This document shows positions 1-43,344 of a stretch of DNA of 64,000 nt, one piece after another. A model generated the notes under the pieces. The model did not search any database, was not told the DNA's origin, and worked only from the letters and a program-made list of their open reading frames with translations. Origin of the DNA: Poronia punctata (lineage: Eukaryota > Ascomycota > Sordariomycetes > Xylariales > Xylariaceae); NCBI GenBank assembly GCA_022579005.1, contig MU401573.1:1-64000 (forward strand), written 5' to 3'. Numbering within the stretch: the stretch's first letter is position 1; each line of letters opens with the position of its first letter. Position numbers and translations under genes: made by a program.

Positions 1-1965
1 TTAGTAAATATTTAGCTATTAAAAACATATAAAGCTTTTAAACATTTTAGTTTTTTTTTTTTTTATAATTAAAATAATAATTAATTATATAAATACTTTT
101 ACTTTATAGTTTTAATTACTTTTATTAAAGCTTTAAATAATATAATTAACTTAATATTTAATTAAGCTTTTAAAGTAAACTTATTAATATTTATTTTATT
201 AGTTATATAGTTAGTAATTAAATATAAAGTTATATTAAAATAAAAAAGCTTAGTACTTATATTAGCTATATTTTAATAAGCTTTACTAACTTTACTAACT
301 ATATTATTTATATTTAACTTAATAATTTTTAATACTTTTACTAAGTTAGCTTAAAATTTAAATTTTAAAAGATTACTTACTAAAATATATATTATATAGC
401 TATATAAAAGCGTACTTACTTTTTTATAAATAAAGCAAATTTTTAATTTTAATGTTAATATTTTATACTTTATAAAATTAAATATTAATAGCTTTTATAG
501 CTTTATAAACTTATATAATAAAAATAATAATATAATATAGTACTAATATAAGCTAAAGTACTTAATTAATATAACGCTTAAAATTTGCTATTAAAAGTAG
601 CTTACTAATAAAAAAGTAGCAATTATTATAAAATATTTTATAAAAAGCTATTATTTTAGCTTTTGCTTTAAATACTTTATTATAACTATTAAACTTATAT
701 AAAAAGTTTATTTTATAAAAATTTAAACTTAAAATAAAGTTATTTATAACTTATAATAAAAAGCTAATATTTATAAATAAATACTAGCTTATTTTATTTT
801 AAAGTATTATAAAAAGCTTTATTAATATATTATAATAATTAATTATAATTAAAAAGCAGCGTTTATTATTAATAATTTAAATATATTTAAATAAAGTACT
901 AAGCATGTTAAAAAAAAACTGCGCTAAGTATACTTAACTATTTTTAATATATTGCTTATTTTAAAACATATTATAGTAGTGCTTTTATTAATATAGTATA
1001 AAAGTTAAAAATATAAAATGCTTAGCATTATTTATATAGTTTACTTATTTAAAGTTTTAAACTAGCTTATTTTTTTAACTACTAATACTTATAATAATTA
1101 TTAACTTCAAAATATAGCTACTTTATTAATAGTACTTAAAAATATAGCTAAAATCTATTTTATTAAATAAAAAACTATATTAGTAAAGCTAAATTAATAA
1201 AAAGCTTTATAATTTTAAACTTTTATAATAACTATAATTAAGTTTATTAAACTAAATATATAAAGTACTTTAAAAGCTTTGCTATAATTTTTAGCTAATA
1301 TAGTTTTAATTACTTTTTTATAAAAAAATACTAAAGTAATAAATACTTTATTTAAAGTATTAATAATATGCTTATTAAATAAAAAGCTTTTTATTAATAG
1401 CAATTATAATTAAAGTTTAAAAGCTTTGCTAGCTAAAAAGCTTTAAAAAAAAGCATAATAATATTTAACTTATTATAAGCTTTATAGCTTTTTTATAAAA
1501 GTAAAAAAGTATATACTTAAATTTACTATTAAAAATATTATATTATAGTAATATTAGCAAAGTATATTAAAATAATTTACTACTAATATAAATTTAAGTC
1601 TAGCTACTACTTTATACTATAAAGTTAATAAAACTTTTTTTTAATATATAACTTGCTTTTAGCTTATTTATTTTTATAAGTAAAAAAATTAAGCATAGTA
1701 CTGCGTAAATATAGCAGCTTTTAACGCTATAATAGCTAAAGCAAAGTTTTAGCAGCTAAAGCAAGCTATTACTAAAGCTAATAATAAGCAATTTTAATAA
1801 ATAAAACCTTTAATAGCTTTAAATAGTTATAAAAAGCCTATTAAATAATAAAATAATAAAGTTTTATATTAATTTTATTAAAAAAAAAAGTTTTTATAAT
1901 ATATTAATTTATTTTAGCTTTAAAATACTAAAAATAGCAACCTTTTTAGCTAAAAGAAATTATAA

Positions 1966-2264
1966 CGTAATTAGCATATATACTAGTTACGCTTTATATT
2001 ATAAAGTAGCTATAAAGCTAAAAAAAGTTAGCTTAATTTCCATTTTTATATATATAGCTATTACTTTTGCGTTACTTTTTAAACTTAAATACCTAGCTAT
2101 TTATTATATATATAATATACTAAGTTATGCTTTTTAAAATACTTTTATAAAGCTATAATTAATATAAAGCCTTTAAAACCTAATTAATACGTTTACTTTA
2201 GCTAAACCTTTTTTAGTATAAAGTTAAAGTAATCTTTAAAAATCTTTAATTTTTATTACACTAT
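1966..2264 (+). repeat. RIP-mutated copy of a 299-bp repeat
   Basis: This aligns by hand, without indels, to 4265-4563. I count about 72 differences over 299 columns; about 65 are C to T or G to A going from the 4265 copy to this one. Both strand senses are present, as expected when RIP acts on both strands. Flanking sequence is not similar beyond these limits. Confidence 0.85.
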
Positions 2265-4264
2265 ATAGCTTTAACTTTTTTATAAATTATTATAAAAGCA
2301 GCAGCTTTATTAATAGTACTAGCTATAATATCTTTTTGCTTTTATACATTTTTTTTACGCTTAATTTATTAGTATAAGCGTTATTTAGCGTTTTTATATT
2401 TTTTTTATATAAATATTAAAGCTATAGCACGCTTATAAGCTTTTTTTATATATAAATTAATAAATAGTTTAATTTTTTTTTTACACTGCTTTAATAAAAG
2501 TAATAGTAAAGATTTTTTTATATTATGCTTTAATATTACTTAAAAAAATTAATATAAATTAGTATATAAAATAAAAAAATATATTTTTATAGTAAAAGGC
2601 TAGTAGCTTAAATAAGTTTAATAATAAAATTATAAGTAATAAAGTACTATAAAGTATTTATTAGCTAAATATATATAATATAAGTATAGAATATAAAATA
2701 ACTAACTAATTTTACTTTATAAAATAAAAGTATAATTTAAAATAATAAAACTTTTAATTAAATAAAAAATATAATAAAAGTAAAGTAAAAGTAAAAAAGT
2801 TAAAAATATATATATATAAGTATAGTAAAAAAAGTTTAAAGTAAAAGTAAAAAAGTAAAGCTATTTTATTACTTTTAACCGCTTTTTTAGCCTAGCTATT
2901 ATTATATATAAAATATTAATATTTTAATAATATTATATATAAATATATATATATTATAAAAATAAAATTATATAAATATTATTAAAACTTTATAAATTTA
3001 AATATATATATATAGCTATATATAAATTAAATTTTAAATTTAAATATATATATATATATAAACTTATTTTAAGTGCTTTAATATTTATAATTTTAACTAT
3101 AATTTAAAGTTTAATATATAATTTTTAAATAATAATATAGTACTTTATTATAATTAGTATATAATTAGTATAATTTTACTTAACTTTTATTTATATATAT
3201 TTATTTAATTAGCTAAACTAAGTAGTATTTTATTTTAATACTATTTATACTTTTTTTTAAAGTAAAATATTATATACTTTTAACTTAAATAAATTTTTTT
3301 TTTAGCTGCGTTTTGCTTATTAATAACTATATTTTATTTTTATAAAGCTTTTTTTATATTAAGCTAAGATTTTAAGTATTATTTAATTTATTATTTATTA
3401 ATTTATTATTATTATTAAAATTATTAATATTAAAAATTTTACTTTTATAGCTTAAAAATAAATTTAGTAGTTATAATGCTGCTTTTAGCTTTTTAATATA
3501 CTTACTATATATAATAATATTTTTTTATTAAAAAATGCGTTTTTAAAGTTTTTATTTATATATAAATAAAAATTAATTATTATAGCTTTATAAAAAGTAT
3601 TTATAATAATATAAGTTTGCTAGTTTTTATATATAGCTTTTACTTAACTTTATATACGCTTTATAAGTACTAAAGCTACTTAAACTATAAAAATATTTTA
3701 AGCAAAAGCTATAAAATTAAAGTTAGTTAGTTTTAAACGCAACTAAAACTATAAAATATTTATTTTTTTATTTATTTTTAAATAAATTTTAATATTTATT
3801 ATATAACTAATAAGTAATATTTTTTAACTTACTTATATTTAAAAAATTATTAATAATATAATTTAATAATTTAAAGCTATTATTTAAATTAAACTAAAAA
3901 ATGCTTTATAAAAGTTAATAATTTTAAAAATATTAAATAAGTATATATAAATAAGTTTATATACTTTTTTAAAGCTTAATTATAATATAAATATTATTTT
4001 AATTATATTATTATAAATAAAACTTAAAATAGTAAAATATTTAAAATTAAACTTTTTTTAATAAAATTAGTATATAGCTTTTAGTTTTTTAATAGCAATA
4101 GCTATATAGTAAGTATTAATTTTATTTTTATTATAGTTAAAATATTTATATTAACTATTAAACTTAATAGTTTAAAAAATAGTATACTAGTACTAAGCAA
4201 ATAAAATAATATAGCTATTTTAAGTATATATTTATTTTTAATAAACGCTTGTTTAATATTGCGA

Positions 4265-4563
4265 CGTAATTAGCATGTATGCTAGTTACGCCTTACGTTA
4301 CAGGGTAGCTACAGGACTAAAGGGGGATAGCTTGATTTCTGTTTTTGTATATGTAGCCCTCATTTTCGCGTTGCTTTCTAGACCTAGATATCTAGCTATC
4401 TATTGTACATACAATACACCAAGTCATGCTTTTTGGGATACCTTTATAAAGCCGTAATTAATGCGAAGCCCTTGAAACCCAGTTGATGCGTCTACTCTGG
4501 CTGGACCTCTTCTGGTGTAAAGTTGGAGTGATCTTTAGAAATCTTCAATTTTCATTGCAATAT
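4265..4563 (+). repeat. Nearly unmutated copy of the 299-bp repeat (possible solo LTR or short element)
   Basis: This is an island of ordinary composition inside the AT-rich block. It begins with an imperfect palindrome at 4265-4290 (arms CGTAATTAGCAT and ATGCTAGTTACG), also kept at 1966-1991. No coding potential is convincing; a 60-aa frame inside it has no recognisable features. Its short length may have let it escape RIP, or it may have inserted after the block was mutated. LTR identity is a guess: no TG..CA ends or target duplication are visible. Confidence 0.7.
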
Positions 4564-6185
4564 ATTTTTTTACTTTTGCTTATATATAATATAATTTTTT
4601 TGCTAGCTTTTTAAAGCTAAAATAATTAAAAGCTATTTTTTTACTATGCTTTTTATTTACTTACTTTTTATATTTAATTAAATACTTTATAATAATAAAG
4701 TATTTAATTAAAATATAACTAATTTAATTATTTTTTAAAAAGCTAAAATTATTAATAAAAAAACTAAAAAGCTAATAAATTATAATAATAAGTTAAATAT
4801 AATTTTATATTTTAAAAGTAAGCATATATTTATTTTTTTGCTTATAAATTTTAATAAACTTTATAATAGTAAAATAAAGCTATAATGCTTATTTTAGTAT
4901 TATAATATAAAAGTTTTACTTAGTTTTAATATTATTAATTATTTTAAATAATTATTAAATATTAAGTTTTTTATATTATATAAGCTAAGCTTATATATTA
5001 GTAAATTTTTTTTATGCTTAGTACTATTGTTAATATATATAGCTAAGCTTTAAAACTATTATTATTAGCTAAAAAATTAAAAATTAATATATAATTAACA
5101 TATTCTTTAAATATATTTTTTATACTATGTTGCTAAAATTATTTAAAATACTAATTTAGTTTAAATTATTAATATTTAAATTTGCTAAAAACGCTTTTAA
5201 TATTAGCTATATTATATAAAAAAAGTAGCTTAAATAAGCAACTTTATTAGCTATATTGCTAAGTTGCTTAGTAATATATTTAATTTTAAAGCTTAAATTA
5301 TTATTTGCTATATAAGTTTTAATAGTATAATATAGTTTAAATTGTTTTAAAGCAATATATATAATATTTAAGTTAAGTTTTACTTTTTTTAAGTTATATT
5401 TTTAAATATTAATTAAAATATAGTAAAGTATTTAGTTTATATTAATAAAATATATATATATACTTTAATAGTAAATTTATATATTTAAAAATGTTTATAT
5501 ATTATATATAACGCTTACTTATAACTTTATTACTTATTTTACTAGTTAGTAAGTAATAATTTTTTAAAAATATTTTATATAAAAAGTATAAAAACTTTTT
5601 TTTAAAAATAACTTTTAATATAAGGCAATATGCTTTTGCTATATAAAAATATATAAGTTTTTAATTATATTAAATAATAAGTTGTTTTTAATTTATATAT
5701 AAAGCAAAAGCTTAGTTATTAAAAAAGTAACTTATTTATTTTATTAAATAATTAGTATATAATTAGTATATAGCTTAGTAATATATATACTTTTTTACTA
5801 AAGTTACTATTTTTTAATTGCTTTTTTTAATATAAACTATAGTTTTTAAACTAAATATGCTTACTTATTAAGCTAGTGCTTATTAATTTTAAAAATATAA
5901 AATAGCATAAAACTTTATTATAAGCTTTATATTTAATTATTAGTATTTTATTTACTTACTATATAACTTAGTTAAATTTCTTTTATACTAAACTTGTTTT
6001 TTTTTAATTAGCTATATTTTTTTATATTATTTACTTTTTTTAAAATATATTATTTTAATAGTAAAACTTAGTTATTTTAAACTATTTATAAAATTTTACT
6101 TTAATTTTCTTTATATATATATAGTATTACTTATTTTAAGTTTTAAAAAAGGTTAAAAGGTATATTAGTAAAAGTAAATTTAAAA

Positions 6186-6281
6186 GCTTAAAACTAAAAT
6201 GCTTTAAAGGCTTAAAACTAAAATGCTTTAAAGGCTTAAAACTAAAATGCTTTAAAGGCTTAAAACTAAAATGCTTTAAAG
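6186..6281 (+). repeat. Tandem repeat, four exact 24-bp units
   Basis: Four consecutive identical 24-bp units begin at 6186, 6210, 6234 and 6258 and start GCTTAAAACT. A fifth partial unit begins at 6282. The copies are identical although they lie in a heavily mutated block, so the array probably expanded after mutation. Confidence 0.9.
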
Positions 6282-9200
6282 GCTTATTTATATTTAAAAT
6301 GTCTTTATTTTAAACTAGGGTATATAAAAAAGCAAGGTTACTAAAGTTGTTGTTTTTAATATTTTTAGTAAATATTTTAATGTTAGCTTAACTAAACTTT
6401 TTAATTTTTATTATTATAATATAATTTAAAAAATATAAAAGTAAGAATTTAAACTAATAACTTAAAAATTTAAAAAATAAAAAAAAGTAAATATATTATA
6501 AATTTATTTTTATAATTATATATTTTAAACTTTATAATAAATTTTTTTTTTATTAATTTTAAAAAGGCCTAGGCTTTATAAAAAATAGTATTTATATACT
6601 ATATTTAAATATATAAATTTTTTACTTACTAGCTTAGTTTTTTTTTTACATATTTTTTTATACGTTTTTTTTTATATATTTTTATATAGTAATAATACTT
6701 TATAATACTACTAGCTTTAAAACTTTTATTTAGTTTAAATTTATTATTTAGTTATTTATTTTAAATATTATTAAATAGCTAGTTTTTATATTTTAATAAT
6801 AATTATAGTTTTGCTAAAATTATTGCTATAATAAATTACGTTTATTAATTATAAGTAATTAAAAAAACACTACTATTGCTTTATTATTATAATATATAAA
6901 GTATAATATAAAACATATTTAAAAATAGTTTTATAAATATAAATAGCTTAATTAGTTTTAGCTTTTTTTTGCTTTTTTTTTTTGCTTAGCTAAGTTTAAA
7001 AGCACTAATTAACTTAGCAACTTATAACTAAGGTGCTATAAAAATTTTTAACTTAACTTGCTAAAAAAAGCAAAGCAAAAGTATATAATATAAAAAAAAA
7101 AAATATATTAATAAAACTATTTAAAGTAGTAAAAAGTAGTGTTTGTTTTTTTAAGCGTAAATAAAAACTTAGTAATAAGTAATTAATTAGTATAAAATTA
7201 ATATATTATAATATAACGTTAATAAAATTAAGTAGCTATGCTTTAAAAAATTTATAAGTACTAAAAAAGCTATAATTTATTAATTTTTTTTTTTTTAGCA
7301 AGTTGTTTAAAAGATTATATTTAAATATAATCTAGCTTTTTATATTTAATTTATAGCGCTTACTATACTTTAAAAAGCTACTAAAGCTTATATTATAAAA
7401 ATTTTTACTTATAAAATAAATATAAGCGCTACTAGTTTGCTATTTAAATACTAACTACTTATAAAATAAATACTAATTTATATACTATATATAAAAAATA
7501 AGTTATAATTATATTAGCAAATTTTACTTTTTTTAAAAATATAAGTAAAAAAATAAATATAAAGATTTTATAAAATAGTTAATATAAAATTTTTACTTTT
7601 AATTTTTTTATATATAAAAATATAAAAAAGTTATAATTTAAAAATTATATACTATTAATATAATAATTGTTTATATTATATTTTATAATATAGTATAAAA
7701 TGTTTGCTTTTTATTTATATACTTATTTATAATATATATTACTTTAATACTAATATATATAAAAAATATATATATTATATATTTAAAATATAAGTAAATA
7801 TATATTATATTATATATAAAAATAATACGATTTTATATAATATAATAGTTTATATATTATTTTTGCTAAATAATATAATATATTTTTACTTTTATTTTAA
7901 ATATATAATATAAATATTTTTAATATATTATATATAAATAAAGCAGTTAATTTTACTTTAGTACTTATAAATAACATATTTTTTTTAATTTTTATAAATT
8001 CCTTTTAATTTTTTTAAACTTTTTTAAATTTTTTTAATTAATAATTTTAATATTATATAAATTTAAATATAAACTTATATAATATTTTTTTATAGTTTTA
8101 AAAATACTTTTAATACTTTAAAAAATAAAATAAAAAATAAATACTTATATATATTAATTATAAATAATAAATTATTTTTATAATAAATTATTATAAATTT
8201 TTTAGTTAATAAATTTTTAATTTTTAAATTTAATTTATATATTAAAAAATAAATTAAAAAAAGTAAACCTTATTATTTAAAGTAAACTTTATATATATTA
8301 GTACTTAGGTATATTTTAGTTAATTAAAATATTTATTTATATTAATTAATTTATATTTACTTATACTTATATAAAAACTTTATTAGTATAATTTTAAGTA
8401 AATAATAAAGTATATATATTTTTATATACTTTAAATTATTATACTTAATTTTAATTAAGTTTTTTAAATTTTAATATATTATTATATATATTATTAATAT
8501 ATATAGTTATAATATAAATATAGTTAAAAACTATAGCTAAAATAGCTTTAATAAATAAACTATATTTTATATACTAATTATATACTAATATATTTAAGCT
8601 TGCTAATACTAAACTTTTTATAAAGTTATTAAATATAGCAATACTAGCTAAAATTAAAAGTATAAATATATTTAAATAAAGTATTTATATTTATTAAATA
8701 TATATTAATTTAAATATATAAGTTAAATAACTTATAAGTAAAATAATACTACTTTATAAAAATGCTAAAAAAAAAAATAATAAAAAAAAAACTTAAAAAA
8801 AACTTAAAACTATAAAAAGCAACACTTGCAAATACTATAAAAAATATTAAAGTGCTTAAAAAAAAATAGTTACTTATAATTAAAAGTATATTTTATATAA
8901 TTTTATTATTTTTATTTATATATTAATTATTTTTTAGTAAAACAAACTTTTATTATTATATTTAAAAAGCAAAACTAAAGCTATTTAAAGCAAGCTATAC
9001 TTTTAGCTTTTTTTACTAAGCTTATAAAAAAAGTTATAAAAAACATTACTTAAAAAAAAATTTATATTTAAATATTTACTTTTTAAGCACTAAAAAAAGC
9101 AAGTAAAAAAACGCTTATAAGCTTATTTATAAGTAAATATATTAAAGTTTAAATATACTAATTATATACTAATTTATTATAGCTACTTTTTAAGCTACTT

Positions 9201-9602
9201 TTTATGCTAGCAAAATTATACTTTTTTTAAAAAATATTTATTTTATATTTTTTATTATAAAAATTATAAAATATATAAATATTAATAGCTTAAAGCTATA
9301 AAGCTTTAAATATTTATATAATAAAGCAAATATTTATAAATATTTAGTTAATATAAAGCAAGTTAAAAAAGCTTGCTAAAAAATTTTAAAAAAATAAGCT
9401 ATTAAAAGGACAGCTTTTAAAGCTAAATATAATAAAAGTAAAAAAAGCAAAAAAAGTAAAAAAAGCATATAAAGTAAAAGTAATAAAAGTATACTAGCTA
9501 TAATACTTATTATATTTTACTTTAACTTAGCTAGTTAATTTTAAGCAATTATAAGTATTAAGTTTATAAATATATTTTTTTATAAATATATAATTTTATA
9601 TA

Positions 9603-24274: not shown

Positions 24275-24376
24275 TCTTGATTGGTCTAGTGGTCAGGATA
24301 CCTGCTTGTCATGGACGAGCGTTCGCTCGTCGTTCGGCAGTGCGCAGGTGGCCGGGGTTCGATTCCCCGATCGAGA
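24275..24376 (+). tRNA. tRNA-Asp (anticodon GTC), with a 31-nt intron
   Basis: A complete cloverleaf can be drawn. Acceptor arms TCTTGAT (24275-24281) and ATCGAGA (24370-24376) pair over 7 bp with one T-G wobble. The D arm follows. Anticodon stem CCTGC (24301-24305) pairs with GCAGG (24344-24348), and the T arm is CCGGGGTTCGATTCCCCG. The anticodon is GTC at 24308-24310. The intron, 24312-24342, sits one base after the anticodon, the canonical eukaryotic position. It contains a perfect GACGAGC/GCTCGTC hairpin. The B box GGTTCGATTCC is intact. Confidence 0.88.
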
Positions 24377-24386
24377 GAATACATTC

Positions 24387-34979: not shown

Positions 34980-35934
34980 TGTCGTGGACTCTCAGAGGGG
35001 AAGTCTCGCTGTATCAAAATTTGGGGCGAGCCGGCTTAAGGAAGCTGACTATTTGCACTCCGGGCTGACATGTAAAGTATTACTTATGGGGTGCGTTAAC
35101 GGATGCACGCGGTGTCATGCATCTATGATCTTAGTACGTGGTAATGAGATAGGCTGACGATAACTGGCGGCAAGAAGCCTGACTTGCAGTGGACATTGAG
35201 GACATGTCTAAACATCATGACAGAGTTCTTTTTATGATCATCTAAACAGGCCATATAGCAAAATTAGCACTTCTAATGGCAAAACACACACACAATCAAT
35301 AAAAAAGAAACGCTTATAACATAAACACGGGTTGTTACCCGTAGTTTTTAAAATGAACCAAAAAAAAATTAAATGAAAAAATTAAAAACGTACAACACCA
35401 GGGATTCGCTGGTCGTCACCGACCCAACTACTGATCTGGCGGTATGTAGCTTAGCTATGGGGGAGCGGACGGGACCCCGCGTTCTCTACATCCTATGGTC
35501 GTACGTGCTAATCAGTCGACGTAATATAATATATATACCGACCTCCTATAGGACACGTTTCGTCCATGTAGGTCTAGACAAGCACCGCTCGACCCGAGCC
35601 GACATCTACATCTTCCGTACCCTTCCATAAGCCGAGCGGCTCGGCACTTCAATTTTCCTCGTGATCTTTTTACTAGGTAGATTCGGTATGTACCAAGTCG
35701 GTAATTACCTATGTGGTCGAAAGGTATGTGGTTTGAATCATTTACCACCCATAGAAAAGCAGAGCACACGCACACGTTTAGTCGAGATATTGAACCTAGC
35801 ATGAATTTCCTAACCTAGCACTCACTAGATATCAATCCTCCACGCCCCTTCGAAAAACCCGAACTTTGCGCCATATCCTATATACAGCCTATTTTATCTC
35901 TTATAACAACCCCCCTCTCTCAAATATACAAGAT
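34980..35934. other. Intergenic, no gene seen
   Basis: About 950 bp, partly A-rich (35280-35395), with no convincing frame. Confidence 0.6.
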
Positions 35935-36557: not shown

Positions 36558-36622
<65 letters not shown>

Positions 36623-38879: not shown

Positions 38880-39293
38880 TCACGCCCTCTTGGTTTCAAT
38901 CGTCTCTCCCAAAACAACAACCGTCATCCGAGCGCGATCAAGAAACTCGTCCTCATCCTCGGCAATCTTGGCCGCAATATCCGGCTGCTGCATGTGTCCA
39001 AAGAATGTCTGGAAGGCGCCGGCGTCCTCAAAGGTCAGCTCAGCAAAGGCATCGTAATCGAATTCCTCTTGACTTCCGATGAGAACAGTCGCCGGCGTGC
39101 TTGGGTTGCGGACCGTACCGGTACCGGCCGCGGTTTCCGACCGGTGAATGTAGCGTCTGGTGTGTGAGAGCGGGAATAGTGCGCCGGCCAGCTGGCGCAC
39201 CAGGGGCACGTGGGACTCTTCGTAGTGCTTCTTGAACTGCTCCGGTGTTATTCCGGGCTTGCGAAAGGCGAAGATGAGCACCGAGTACGTCAT
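38880..39293 (-). CDS. EthD-domain protein
   Basis: A single exon of 137 aa starts at ATG 39293. It has the layout of a dimeric alpha/beta-barrel EthD protein: first strand SVLIFAFRKPG, then TPEQFKKHYEESHVPLVRQL with the conserved His-Val-Pro-Leu, a central variable region, and the last strand MTVVVLGETI. EthD-like proteins in fungi often accompany polyketide or aromatic pathways, but no such cluster is here. The specific reaction is unknown. Confidence 0.82.
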   Translation of the reverse strand: MTYSVLIFAFRKPGITPEQFKKHYEESHVPLVRQLAGALFPLSHTRRYIHRSETAAGTGTVRNPSTPATVLIGSQEEFDYDAFAELTFEDAGAFQTFFGHMQQPDIAAKIAEDEDEFLDRARMTVVVLGETIETKRA

Positions 39294-40791
39294 GTTTTCT
39301 GCGTGACGGCGGTGGGTAGAAAGAGCTTGCTCTGGTAACGTGGGGAGTGTGACGACGAGGTAGATGATGGAGGACTGGAGGGGATGATAATGTGTGAGCT
39401 GAACAAATGAAAGACAGTTCCGGTTGGGATTCGGGAAGGGCACAGCAGTCAACCTTATATAACTGGTCGACGATGCAAGGGGTCATTTCGTGCAACTTTT
39501 CTATTTGATTTTGAATGCTATTCAAAACATCCCCGTATCCATATCCCTTTTCTGTTGACCAACGTTCGATGACGCGGGGGAGGCTGTGCCGTCAAAACTT
39601 GTTATGTCTTATAATAGAAGGACTTTCTTACATACATCGCAGCGCCCCCACCTGTTATACTCCAACCAACTCCATCCCTGCCGAGCCAGCCAGCAGGCTC
39701 GATCTGGTTCGTCCTCTTACGAGTATACACATAGATTCTAACCGTAGCTGTTATCAGCACAGCTCAGCCCGCTTCATGAAGTTCCCCGGACCCTCTCTCT
39801 AAATCTATAGGCAGTCTTAACTGTGCCGCAAAGTGGTAGAAATTCCCCGCCCTGTCTATGCCGTGGACAAACTAAATAAGTACGCCTCACCTTTGCGTTC
39901 TAGGACCTACTGCTTACCCCTAACATGACCGAATCTATTAAGGAGATTATGTTTTTGTTTTACAAAAGCATAGCAATACCCTTTTATAGGAGGTGAATAG
40001 AGGGTCGTGGCCAGGGCAGCTCAAATGAAAGCCATGATCAAGGGGGTTGAAATCCAAAGCCACGGGAGGTCAGGTCAGATCGTTTCCAAGCCCATGATCA
40101 AAGGGGGTGCTTAGGAAGGTAGTAAGAAACTATATAAATGTCCATTACACGCGTAGAAAGTGCCTGTCCTTTTATACTGCAAAATCTATTTATACCAAGT
40201 AAGTGAAAGGAGACATTTTGCAAGGGAATTATTTCCTTCTACTAACGACCTTTATAGGCAGTTAGGGAAATTTGGATGGGTAGGTATCCTAAGACGGACG
40301 ACAGACTATATGGAGTTAACCCCTTGTTAACTGCCGGTTATACTTCCTCCTTACCTGTCGACCACATGATCCTTTACCTATGCGGCTTCTTTAATCGGCA
40401 TATAATCCAGTACAGTCTATGTATGTAGTATAACAGCGTCATCGGACAAGATGGTATTATGAGCATGAGCACCAGGTCTCACAAACAACCGCCGTGTGGC
40501 TTTGTCCATCCGTCGCGGAACTATCCGATTCCTATTTCGTGTAACAAGATCTTAGATACATTATCTCTATCGGCAACTATCCAAAGTTTCCAACCGGTTG
40601 TGTAATACCAAGTGGGCCGCCGGGCAACGTTCCGGTTTACACAGGAGTGGGGTAACTGTAAGTAAGACACAATTAGTATAGATCAAGAAACAAACATATT
40701 ACCACGTGCAACATACCTGCCCCATGATGTCTCTTAACCTTAACAAACTAACCTTCCTCACTCTCATCCTCATCTAACCTCCTCACAACCC
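39294..40791. other. Intergenic, no gene seen
   Basis: About 1.5 kb. A TATATAAG motif on the minus strand near 39455-39463 may serve the EthD gene. A direct repeat containing CCATGATCAA and GGGGGT occurs at about 40032-40051 and 40092-40109. No convincing frame. Confidence 0.55.
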
Positions 40792-41762
40792 CTAATCAAA
40801 CACTGCCTTGAAGTTCTCAAAGCACTCCTCAGGCTTCCCACCGGCATTGACCTGTTCGTAAACAAAACTTAGTACCACTACACTCCAAATGAAGAAGGGG
40901 GAGGCGGGGGGGGGCATATAGCAAACCTCTACCACGTTCGACAACCGCTGCCTAATAGCGACCATATTCCTCTCATACTCCCTAAACCTCGTATACCATC
41001 TCGCCGGATCATCCATCGTCTCCCTACCGCGACTCAGATACCGCTCCGCCGCTACCTGTCCAGGACAGGCGAGGACGATGGTTTTGGTAGGTTTACCGAT
41101 CTGTCCCAAGTATTCACTGATCAGCATCTCCATCACCATCACGTCCCCCTTACACCAAAGAAGAAAAAAAGGAATTGAAAAAAAAAGAAAAAAAAACATA
41201 CCTCTGCCTCGAAAAGAATCAAACTATCCTCATCCCTCGGAAACCCATCAATCAACCAAACCACCTTCTCCTTTCCATCCTCATCCTTATTCCCCCTCAA
41301 TTCCTCGATCCTCTTCCGCAAAATCGTAACCAGTTTATCGGCTGGTATCAGTTTACTAGCTCGTAGATAGCCTCTGATGGATTCGTCGTCTCGGCTTAGG
41401 TGGCGGAGATAATCGCCTACGGAGAGGTGGATACAGCAGCAGTCGGTATCGGGTTTGTTGTTGTTGTGGTTATTGTTGTTGTTGTTTAGATGGAGGGACA
41501 TTTTTTTACAGAGCGTTCCTTTGCCGCTTCCTGGGGCGCCGAGGATGAAGATTATTTTGTCGGTGGGTGGGAGAGCCATTCTTTTCTTTTTTTTACTTTT
41601 GGTAGGATAAGGAAGGGGTGTTTGTTGATGGGAATTGAGAGATGAGTTTAGATAGATAGATGTTGGGTAAGTAGAGAATATGGATCGTGCTGTAATTCTT
41701 GAGAGCAGGGAAGGAGTAAGGAGGTATGAGATGATTAAATACATCGAATCAATGAGTGACAT
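40792..41762 (-). CDS. Nucleoside monophosphate kinase (adenylate/UMP-CMP kinase family), divergent from viperin
   Basis: Three exons joined at phase 0: 41762 or 41579 to 41202, 41148-40927, and 40851-40792. The inner ATG at 41579 (strong context AGAATGG) gives 219 aa, close to the family's usual length; the outer ATG at 41762 gives 280 aa. The P-loop is GAPGSGKGT, followed by HLSVGDYLR (NMP binding), WLIDGFPRD, ACPGQVAAERYLSRGRE, and an Arg-rich lid with DDPARWYTRFREYERN. An Asn-rich insert (LNNNNNNHNNN) lies between the P-loop helix and the next strand. The extra N-terminus from the outer start is hydrophobic/Ser/Arg-rich and almost without acidic residues, like a possible mitochondrial presequence. 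The family phosphorylates NMP to NDP; which NMP is not certain. Head-to-head with viperin. Confidence 0.85.
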
Positions 41763-42098
41763 TCTTTGTGTTTTTCGTGTTGTTGTTGTTGTTGTTGTTA
41801 TTGTTCTGTTGTTTTGTGTATGGAATCTAGATGTTGTTTCTTGGTGTTTTCGTTCGTTTCTGCCTGCGAGGGTTTCCTTCTAACATCTAATCTCAACAAA
41901 GCCTAACCTAGACAGTTTGAGCAGATATAATAAATCCGTTTGCTTCTAATTGTCCTTCTATCAATGCTTGTAGCCTTTTGGAACTCCCCGAGCCGCATGA
42001 TCTTTTGTTTTGCCCTAATAAGTGACTCTATAGAACTATCCAGAGTTGGCAAGCTGTGAAACTGAATCAAGGGTCTGAAGTAACCACCCATTGTGTAC

Positions 42099-42105
42099 TG
42101 AGTCA
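42099..42105. promoter_or_regulatory. Possible bZIP (Gcn4/AP-1-type) site
   Basis: TGAGTCA, the palindromic core bound by Gcn4/CPC1-type bZIP factors, lies 205 bp upstream of the viperin ATG. A single 7-mer match, so chance is not excluded. Confidence 0.3.
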
Positions 42106-42226
42106 CAAGAATATCCGCCAACATCCGGTGTGTGACAAACCTGAAGTTGTTTTACAGGCCTTTGTTGTTTTCTGGATCTGTGAGGAAAACCGAGAAGGAC
42201 CCAGAGAGAGTGAGATAACCTGGCAA

Positions 42227-42234
42227 TATAAATA
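42227..42234 (+). promoter_or_regulatory. TATA box of the viperin gene
   Basis: TATAAATA, 76 bp upstream of the viperin ATG. A strong TATA box suggests an inducible rather than housekeeping promoter. Confidence 0.5.
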
Positions 42235-42309
42235 GAGCTCGGCCTCCGGCAAAGATTTGTTATACTTGCCATAGAAGAAATCTCCATCAATTAAGAAAGA
42301 TTGCCCAAA

Positions 42310-43344
42310 ATGTTAGCACAACTATTCTCCGCGTTGGGTCCATCAACTCTCCTCGCTTGCATTCTCGCTGTTTTAGGAGCCTCCCTCGCATATCGAAAAT
42401 ACACAATCTACAACACGGTCCTCCCGGTTTCTGTCAACTATCACTTTACAAGAAAATGCAACAAGGAATGTGGCTTTTGCTTCCACACAGAGAAGACCTC
42501 GTATGTGGCGAATGAAGACGACATGAAGCGTGGACTACGCCTGTTAAAAGATGCCGGCATGCGAAAGATCAACTTCGCCGGCGGCGAACCATTCCTATAT
42601 CCCGATAAACTTGCCATGCTCTGTCGTTTCTGCAAAGAGGATCTCGGCCTCGAGAGCGTCAGCATAATCACCAACGGGACCAAAGTAACGGAGAGATGGT
42701 TGGAAAAGCATGGCAAATGGGTTGACGTGATGGGAGTAAGTTGCGACAGTTTCGACGAGCCGACAAACATTGCTATCGGACGTGGCACGGGCAAGAACGT
42801 GGAACAATTATTCCGCATCCGCAACTGGTGCGAGCGACTTGGTATCAAGTTCAAGCTTAATACGGTTATCTGCAAATTCAACTGGAAAGAGGACATGGCC
42901 GAGACGGTGTGGAAGCTTGATCCTTTCCGCTGGAAGGTTTTCCAGGTCCTATACGTCGAGGGAGAGAATGACGCCATGGAGGAAGACAGTGACCAGGACA
43001 AGAGGAAACGCAACGCGCGGGATTTACTCATCACGGACGAGCAGTTCGAAGACTTTTGCCGGCGCCATCGTCAGCTCGAGTGTTTCGTCCCCGAACCCAA
43101 CTCTCTCATGGCGTCGAGTTATTTGATCCTAGACGAGTACATGTGCTTTCTGGACAAGGGTTCTGGGGTGGAGAAACAGTCAAAGTCGATTCTCGAGGTG
43201 GGAGTTCAAAAGGCGCTGAGCGAAATTCACTGGGACGAAAAGGCCTTCAAGGCAAGGGGTGGCATGTATGAATGGTCAAAGGAGGTCGCCGGGGACAGCG
43301 GAAGTGGTTGTGGTTCCAGCGATCTCAAGGCACTTGAATTTTGA
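42310..43344 (+). CDS. Viperin (RSAD2) homologue, radical SAM ddh-nucleotide synthase
   Basis: A single exon of 344 aa from ATG 42310 (AAAATG); the frame just upstream opens with TTG only. An N-terminal hydrophobic helix (about residues 12-28) may anchor it to membranes. The radical SAM Fe-S motif is Cys50, Cys54, Cys57 in RKCNKECGFCFHT, and the SAM-binding GGE is in NFAGGEPFLY (residues 91-93). Viperin-specific signatures follow in order: ITNGTKVTERWL, GVSCDSFDEPTNIAIGRG, KFKLNTVICKFNWKEDM, PFRWKVFQVLYVEGEN, CFVPEPNSLMASSYLILDEY, SKSILEVGV, and RGGMYEWSK. It ends Leu-Glu-Phe, which fits the C-terminal tripeptide read by the CIA targeting complex. Family members convert NTPs to 3'-deoxy-3',4'-didehydro-NTP antiviral nucleotides; the fungal substrate is not shown by sequence. 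Head-to-head with a nucleotide kinase. Confidence 0.95.
   Translation: MLAQLFSALGPSTLLACILAVLGASLAYRKYTIYNTVLPVSVNYHFTRKCNKECGFCFHTEKTSYVANEDDMKRGLRLLKDAGMRKINFAGGEPFLYPDKLAMLCRFCKEDLGLESVSIITNGTKVTERWLEKHGKWVDVMGVSCDSFDEPTNIAIGRGTGKNVEQLFRIRNWCERLGIKFKLNTVICKFNWKEDMAETVWKLDPFRWKVFQVLYVEGENDAMEEDSDQDKRKRNARDLLITDEQFEDFCRRHRQLECFVPEPNSLMASSYLILDEYMCFLDKGSGVEKQSKSILEVGVQKALSEIHWDEKAFKARGGMYEWSKEVAGDSGSGCGSSDLKALEF

Follow-up and report, generated by a model that had tools for sequence, protein, structure and literature searches.

Does the viperin gene of the ascomycete Poronia punctata form a functional unit with the nucleotide kinase gene beside it? In vertebrates, RSAD2 and CMPK2 are arranged head-to-head, and CMPK2 is thymidylate-kinase-like. 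The pair studied here lies in a window of 64,000 nucleotides (the whole stretch of DNA that was analysed) on a 113,662-bp contig (C120) of a 45.05-Mb assembly with 573 contigs. It resembles the vertebrate pair in that viperin lies beside a nucleotide kinase gene, and differs from it in that the kinase is of the adenylate/UMP-CMP rather than the thymidylate-kinase-like type. We give a probability of roughly 58% to the reading that the two genes are a module for ddh-nucleotides (3'-deoxy-3',4'-didehydro analogues), in which viperin makes chain terminators and the kinase serves it by raising the flux from NMP to NDP or by rescuing ddh-NMP. The features of the locus are:

38880-39452: EthD protein, beyond the kinase
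40792..40851, minus strand: kinase exon 3 with stop codon
40927..41100, minus strand: kinase exon 2, with the LID arginines
41202..41579, minus strand: kinase exon 1, with the P-loop, the NMP-binding Arg, DGFPR and the base-reading residue Ser119
41580..42309: region between the two start codons, 730 bp
42227-42233, plus strand: TATAAAT, 83 bp upstream of the viperin ATG
42310..43344, plus strand: viperin (radical SAM ddh-nucleotide synthase homologue), one exon, 344 aa
44926-48246: sulfite-reductase-like flavoprotein, downstream of viperin

The viperin is the sole match reported in the 45.05-Mb assembly and is, as the earlier note had read it, a full homologue: it scores 252.5 bits against NCBIfam NF038283 (above the cut-off of 180) and 66.7 bits against PF04055 (Pfam), has the CX3CX2C radical SAM cluster motif (CNKECGFC, residues 50-57) and matches solved structures. 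Against the animal-type model TIGR04278 it reaches 369.8 bits, below the cut-off of 450. The viperin model has 50-62% identity to the solved fungal, mouse and Nematostella viperins, and the close solved relatives carry SAM and CTP. Based on the fold and on 54-62% identity to the solved ddh-synthases of Trichoderma virens, it is likely that the window viperin has ddh-synthase activity.

The substrate is a finer question. Residue 217 is Glu, as in an engineered form of the first T. virens enzyme (9dfw, CTP-bound) and in the F40H variant of the second (9dfu, structure with CTP), and this leans towards CTP rather than UTP. As proof of CTP use, Glu217 was rejected: in the first T. virens enzyme this position is Thr, yet its structure too contains CTP (9dgw), so residue 217 leaves the substrate unsettled.

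The C-terminal Trp found in most relatives is absent from the window viperin, which ends in Phe; three further proteins (P0077, P0243, P0244) in an alignment of 40 sequences do the same. According to the excerpted source, the C-terminal Trp serves Fe-S cluster insertion and was described for the animal protein (PMC12737575). Because the Trp was described for the animal enzyme, and because NF038283 does not depend on it, the protein is filed as a viperin despite its Phe end. The corresponding NCBI protein (P0001) has only 287 aa, compared with 344 aa for the open frame, and a different end; it is missing most of the C-terminal part that is kept in relatives, and the annotated splice therefore looks wrong. 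Scans of viral contigs and genome contigs with a fungal viperin alignment confirmed no relative.

The kinase gene on the minus strand has two GT-AG introns (101 and 75 bp), and its spliced product of 203 aa is identical to NCBI protein P0121. The gene had been placed at 40792-41762; the kinase itself stands, its start does not. The ATG at 41762 is an in-frame upstream ATG and was rejected as the start, as the annotated protein begins at 41579 and the 60 extra codons upstream matched no Pfam family at E 0.1. The kinase passes the Pfam cut-off for PF00406 (adenylate kinase superfamily), and the fold agrees. Its best NCBIfam match is the UMP-CMP kinase model TIGR01359, with a score (74.1 bits) below the cut-off of 207.6. 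The dTMP kinase model gives 18 bits (cut-off 83.25), no thymidylate kinase domain was matched in Pfam at 1e-3, and the thymidylate-kinase match of the genome is on another contig (C13). A CMPK2-like identity was therefore rejected, and the earlier assignment to the adenylate/UMP-CMP family, apart from CMPK2, agrees with both fold and score; on the same two grounds, convergence with CMPK2 stands. Exon 1 also encodes an Asn/His-rich repeat (41440-41490) between the P-loop and SVGD, which is missing in the other 38 aligned linked kinases.

No supported gene separates the two divergent genes, again as first described: the distance from start to start is 730 bp, and the three short ORFs that were scanned within it all remain below the Pfam cut-offs (best scores 18.4 bits versus 50 for PF25707 and 13.2 versus 20.6 for PF00414).

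Whether other fungi have the same arrangement was assessed from the best 120 of 2360 viperin matches and the best 120 of 293 kinase matches, each entry being a cluster. Linkage was called when a viperin and a kinase entry lay on contigs of identical size in bp, together with the species name; 101 of the 120 kinase entries entered this comparison, and the other 19, plants among them, were checked visually against the viperin contigs, with no match. Among the matches listed, 39 kinase entries are on a contig of exactly the same size as that of a viperin entry. The counter-case named in the earlier note, that related fungi as a rule keep viperin without the kinase neighbour, does not hold among species with both entries listed: the two genes share an identical-size contig in 36 of the 39 species common to both lists (best 120 each), against about 0.6 species expected if genes were placed at random in genomes of 45 Mb. 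All 36 exact matches between named entries are within one species and none is between species. In three species (Hypoxylon sp. FL0890, Jackrogersella minutella and Ustulina deusta) the contigs of the two entries differ in size. With Dothistroma septosporum, which came from a second viperin search, the count rises to 37/40. Locus tags, read by eye, are consecutive in all six species with serial numbers in both lists:

Lasiodiplodia mahajangana: g450/g451
Xylaria curta: g802/g803
X. hypoxylon: g4921/g4920
X. bambusicola: 012444/012443
Xylariales No.14919: 043260/043270 (consecutive, in a step of ten)
Apiospora aurea: 000200/000199

The pairing is thus not private to the Poronia punctata genome. 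Head-to-head orientation and distance are taken from this genome alone, and adjacency elsewhere from the six tag pairs. The linkage spans two classes, Sordariomycetes and Dothideomycetes, the latter with shared contigs in Lecanosticta acicola (116 kb), Zasmidium cellare (873 kb) and Dothistroma septosporum (2.75 Mb). Two metagenome contigs of 4,460 and 17,870 bp also pair a viperin with a kinase, by identical size alone, and a 204,578-bp contig joins a viperin entry with a kinase entry named Annulohypoxylon stygium. Xylaria curta, X. bambusicola and X. arbuscula are each listed with a second strain, and the kinase entries of these strains equal no viperin entry in contig size. Among the best 120 matches of each list, 30 of the 69 viperin species have no kinase entry: 14 of 51 Xylariales-type species and 16 of 18 others, including all eight Mycena.

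Viperins of Mycena and Favolaschia (P0050, P0051, P0055, P0063, P0064, P0076, P0103), which belong to the Basidiomycota, are 70-76% identical to the window viperin and are placed next to the Xylariales viperins by a quick, poorly rooted tree of 63 entries, hand-picked from those listed, the root of which was flagged as unsound by the program. From these sequences, transfer of viperin between the phyla, involving the Xylariales side and Mycena/Favolaschia, is possible. No Mycena kinase is among the best 120 of 293 kinase matches. P0013 and P0122, labelled Lasiodiplodia mahajangana, group with a Nemania viperin, and this species label looks wrong.

The strongest competitor of the module is a neutral conserved neighbourhood: in Pezizomycotina, small gene blocks or the gene content of whole chromosomes persist without joint function. 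Most of the linked species belong to one order, so the linkage may be one inherited event. Conservation at the level of chromosomes is known from Dothideomycetes and could yield the shared contig of Dothistroma, where a common contig of 2.75 Mb is the only evidence. It fits less well that a second class has the linkage on a contig as small as 116 kb (Lecanosticta), that the two genes probably also lie together on the two short metagenome contigs, that the linked kinases have a common clade and a change at the base-reading position, and that viperins are paired with nucleotide kinases in bacteria and vertebrates too. Overall, we regard mere neighbourhood as unlikely, at perhaps a third of the weight of the module.

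The kinase tree has 93 entries, three added paralogues of the Poronia genome among them; 30 of the 120 kinase entries were omitted as near-duplicates or plants, including 13 of the 40 linked kinases. All 27 linked kinases in the tree fall within one clade of 53 entries (support 100/96). The URA6-type UMP kinase that this genome also encodes, at C165:46287, lies outside that clade and has 28% identity to the window kinase, and the identification of the window kinase as the housekeeping UMP kinase (URA6) was rejected. The earlier note had set its proposal against the case that the kinase is the only housekeeping UMP/CMP kinase of the genome; with a separate URA6-type gene present, the window copy would be free to specialise. 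Two further divergent adenylate-kinase-like genes with long branches are at G000:C41:204398-204895 (L004) and G000:C18 near 188128 (L008); in the C18 protein, DGLPV replaces DGFPR.

The catalytic framework of the linked kinases is intact: the P-loop, the NMP-binding Arg and DGFPR are kept in 40/40, the LID pattern in 38/40, and the last LID arginine (R164) is invariant in an alignment of 39. The base-reading residue was defined as the fourth after the arginine of DGFPR, which we take to correspond to Arg88 of the E. coli enzyme and Arg97 of human AK1. In the excerpted sources, Gln92 of E. coli adenylate kinase, after Arg88, bonds adenine and helps to set specificity (PMC3369945) and Gln101 of human AK1 is an AMP-binding residue (PMC8317388); the role assigned here rests on these two residues, as literature searches gave nothing direct on UMP kinases. 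Within the 53-entry clade the residue is Ser/Thr in 44, Gln in six, Asn in two and Cys in one; in the 40 entries outside it is never Ser/Thr (30 Gln, seven Asn, one His, one Glu, one unreadable). Of the 40 linked kinases, 36 have Ser/Thr and four have Gln, Asn or Cys. The distribution of the change approaches that of one event plus reversals, so the change marks the clade and is no independent proof of the link to viperin. Ser/Thr at this position could also reflect relaxed function. The motif SVGDYLR was rejected as a marker of the linked clade, as SVGD is also present in plant UMP-CMP kinases and the search had been seeded with the exact words.

Across 39 gene pairs, mean identity is 47% for the kinase versus 71% for viperin, and kinase identity is the lower one in 741/741 comparisons, which are not independent of each other. 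The faster divergence of the kinase would fit arms-race evolution or weaker constraint.

Ordinary UMP-CMP kinases have a different base-reading residue, so a simple supply of UMP/CMP is one possibility among several. The kinase might instead act in recycling or self-protection, handling ddh-monophosphate or another modified nucleotide downstream of viperin rather than supplying NTP: the URA6-type gene already covers bulk UMP/CMP, and the altered residue departs from that of housekeeping kinases. However, it is the sugar that the ddh modification alters, and the changed residue reads the base, judging from E. coli Gln92 in the excerpted account (PMC3369945); we consider such a purely downstream role improbable, more so than a neutral neighbourhood. 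A role in making a nucleoside natural product for secretion or storage, instead of antiviral defence within the cell, is very improbable, as the flanking genes (EthD protein on one side, sulfite-reductase-like flavoprotein on the other) are unlike a biosynthetic cluster, even though excerpts on the Thielavia fungal enzyme put it forward as a maker of antiviral natural products (PMC9642334).

The module itself would thus be a two-gene system of Pezizomycotina. Viperin would convert a pyrimidine NTP (CTP or UTP) to its ddh analogue, and this analogue would terminate the chains made by the RNA polymerases of mycoviruses or elements. Its partner kinase, probably a paralogue that has specialised within the UMP-CMP/adenylate kinase superfamily, would boost the local flux from mono- to diphosphates that feeds viperin, and may additionally re-phosphorylate ddh-monophosphate released by RNA turnover. 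Enzyme activities, substrate, joint regulation and antiviral use of the pair are all inferred from the genes and their neighbours. A more far-reaching version is tentative and rather doubtful: a dedicated Pezizomycotina partner kinase, derived from the UMP-CMP/adenylate kinase superfamily, with a base-reading pocket rebuilt from Gln/Asn to Ser/Thr for nucleotides of the ddh pathway, in a pair that pre-dates the split of Sordariomycetes and Dothideomycetes and serves as an inducible defence against RNA viruses, independent of animals.

Shomar 2024 is said to have already reported, in general, linkage of viperins with nucleotide kinases in eukaryotes. Our literature searches found no fungal viperin-kinase pair in print, and we make no claim that the literature has none. 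New here are that the partner in fungi is of the ADK type, that it recurs in two classes and that its base-reading residue is altered. The yeast URA6/UMP-CMP kinase differs from the window kinase in both clade and the Ser/Thr at that position. In mammalian cells, CMPK2 raises ddhCTP, according to the excerpted report (PMC10058120), and excerpts on bacteria state that a CMPK2-like kinase gene adjoins 15% of viperin genes (PMC11249213). The window viperin matches the PADLOC model of kinase-associated pVips (PDLC02904, 9e-67) and that of viperin-kinase fusions (2.5e-53), but its match to the model of viperins that lack a kinase association is slightly stronger (4.7e-70). Against VakA (PADLOC PDLC02911), the window kinase (P0121) and P0122 gave no match, and P0172 (1.4e-5) and P0180 (1.6e-4) matched weakly. 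The accounts of the Trichoderma virens and Thielavia terrestris ddh-synthases, as excerpted, do not mention a kinase partner. From the sequences, the fungal module was most likely assembled independently of RSAD2-CMPK2. If true, viperin-kinase pairing would have at least two origins in eukaryotes, with kinases of different folds, and this would argue for a real bottleneck of ddh-nucleotide immunity at the supply or recycling of nucleotides. Fungi would gain a concrete two-gene antiviral candidate, with Ser119 of the kinase as a single residue bearing on what the partner phosphorylates.

Elsewhere in the window, Rfam identifies a 5S rRNA gene (35387-35506, minus strand) and a tRNA gene (24275-24377, plus strand), the latter missed by ARAGORN with bacterial settings. 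A run of 65 consecutive C at 36558-36622 is either a real tract or an assembly flaw. The block 1-9600 is AT-rich (GC 0.13), with a TpA/ApT ratio of 1.43 (0.83-0.93 elsewhere in the window) and a (CpA+TpG)/(ApC+GpT) ratio of 0.31 (1.03-1.08 elsewhere), and from this composition it looks like the product of repeat-induced point mutation.
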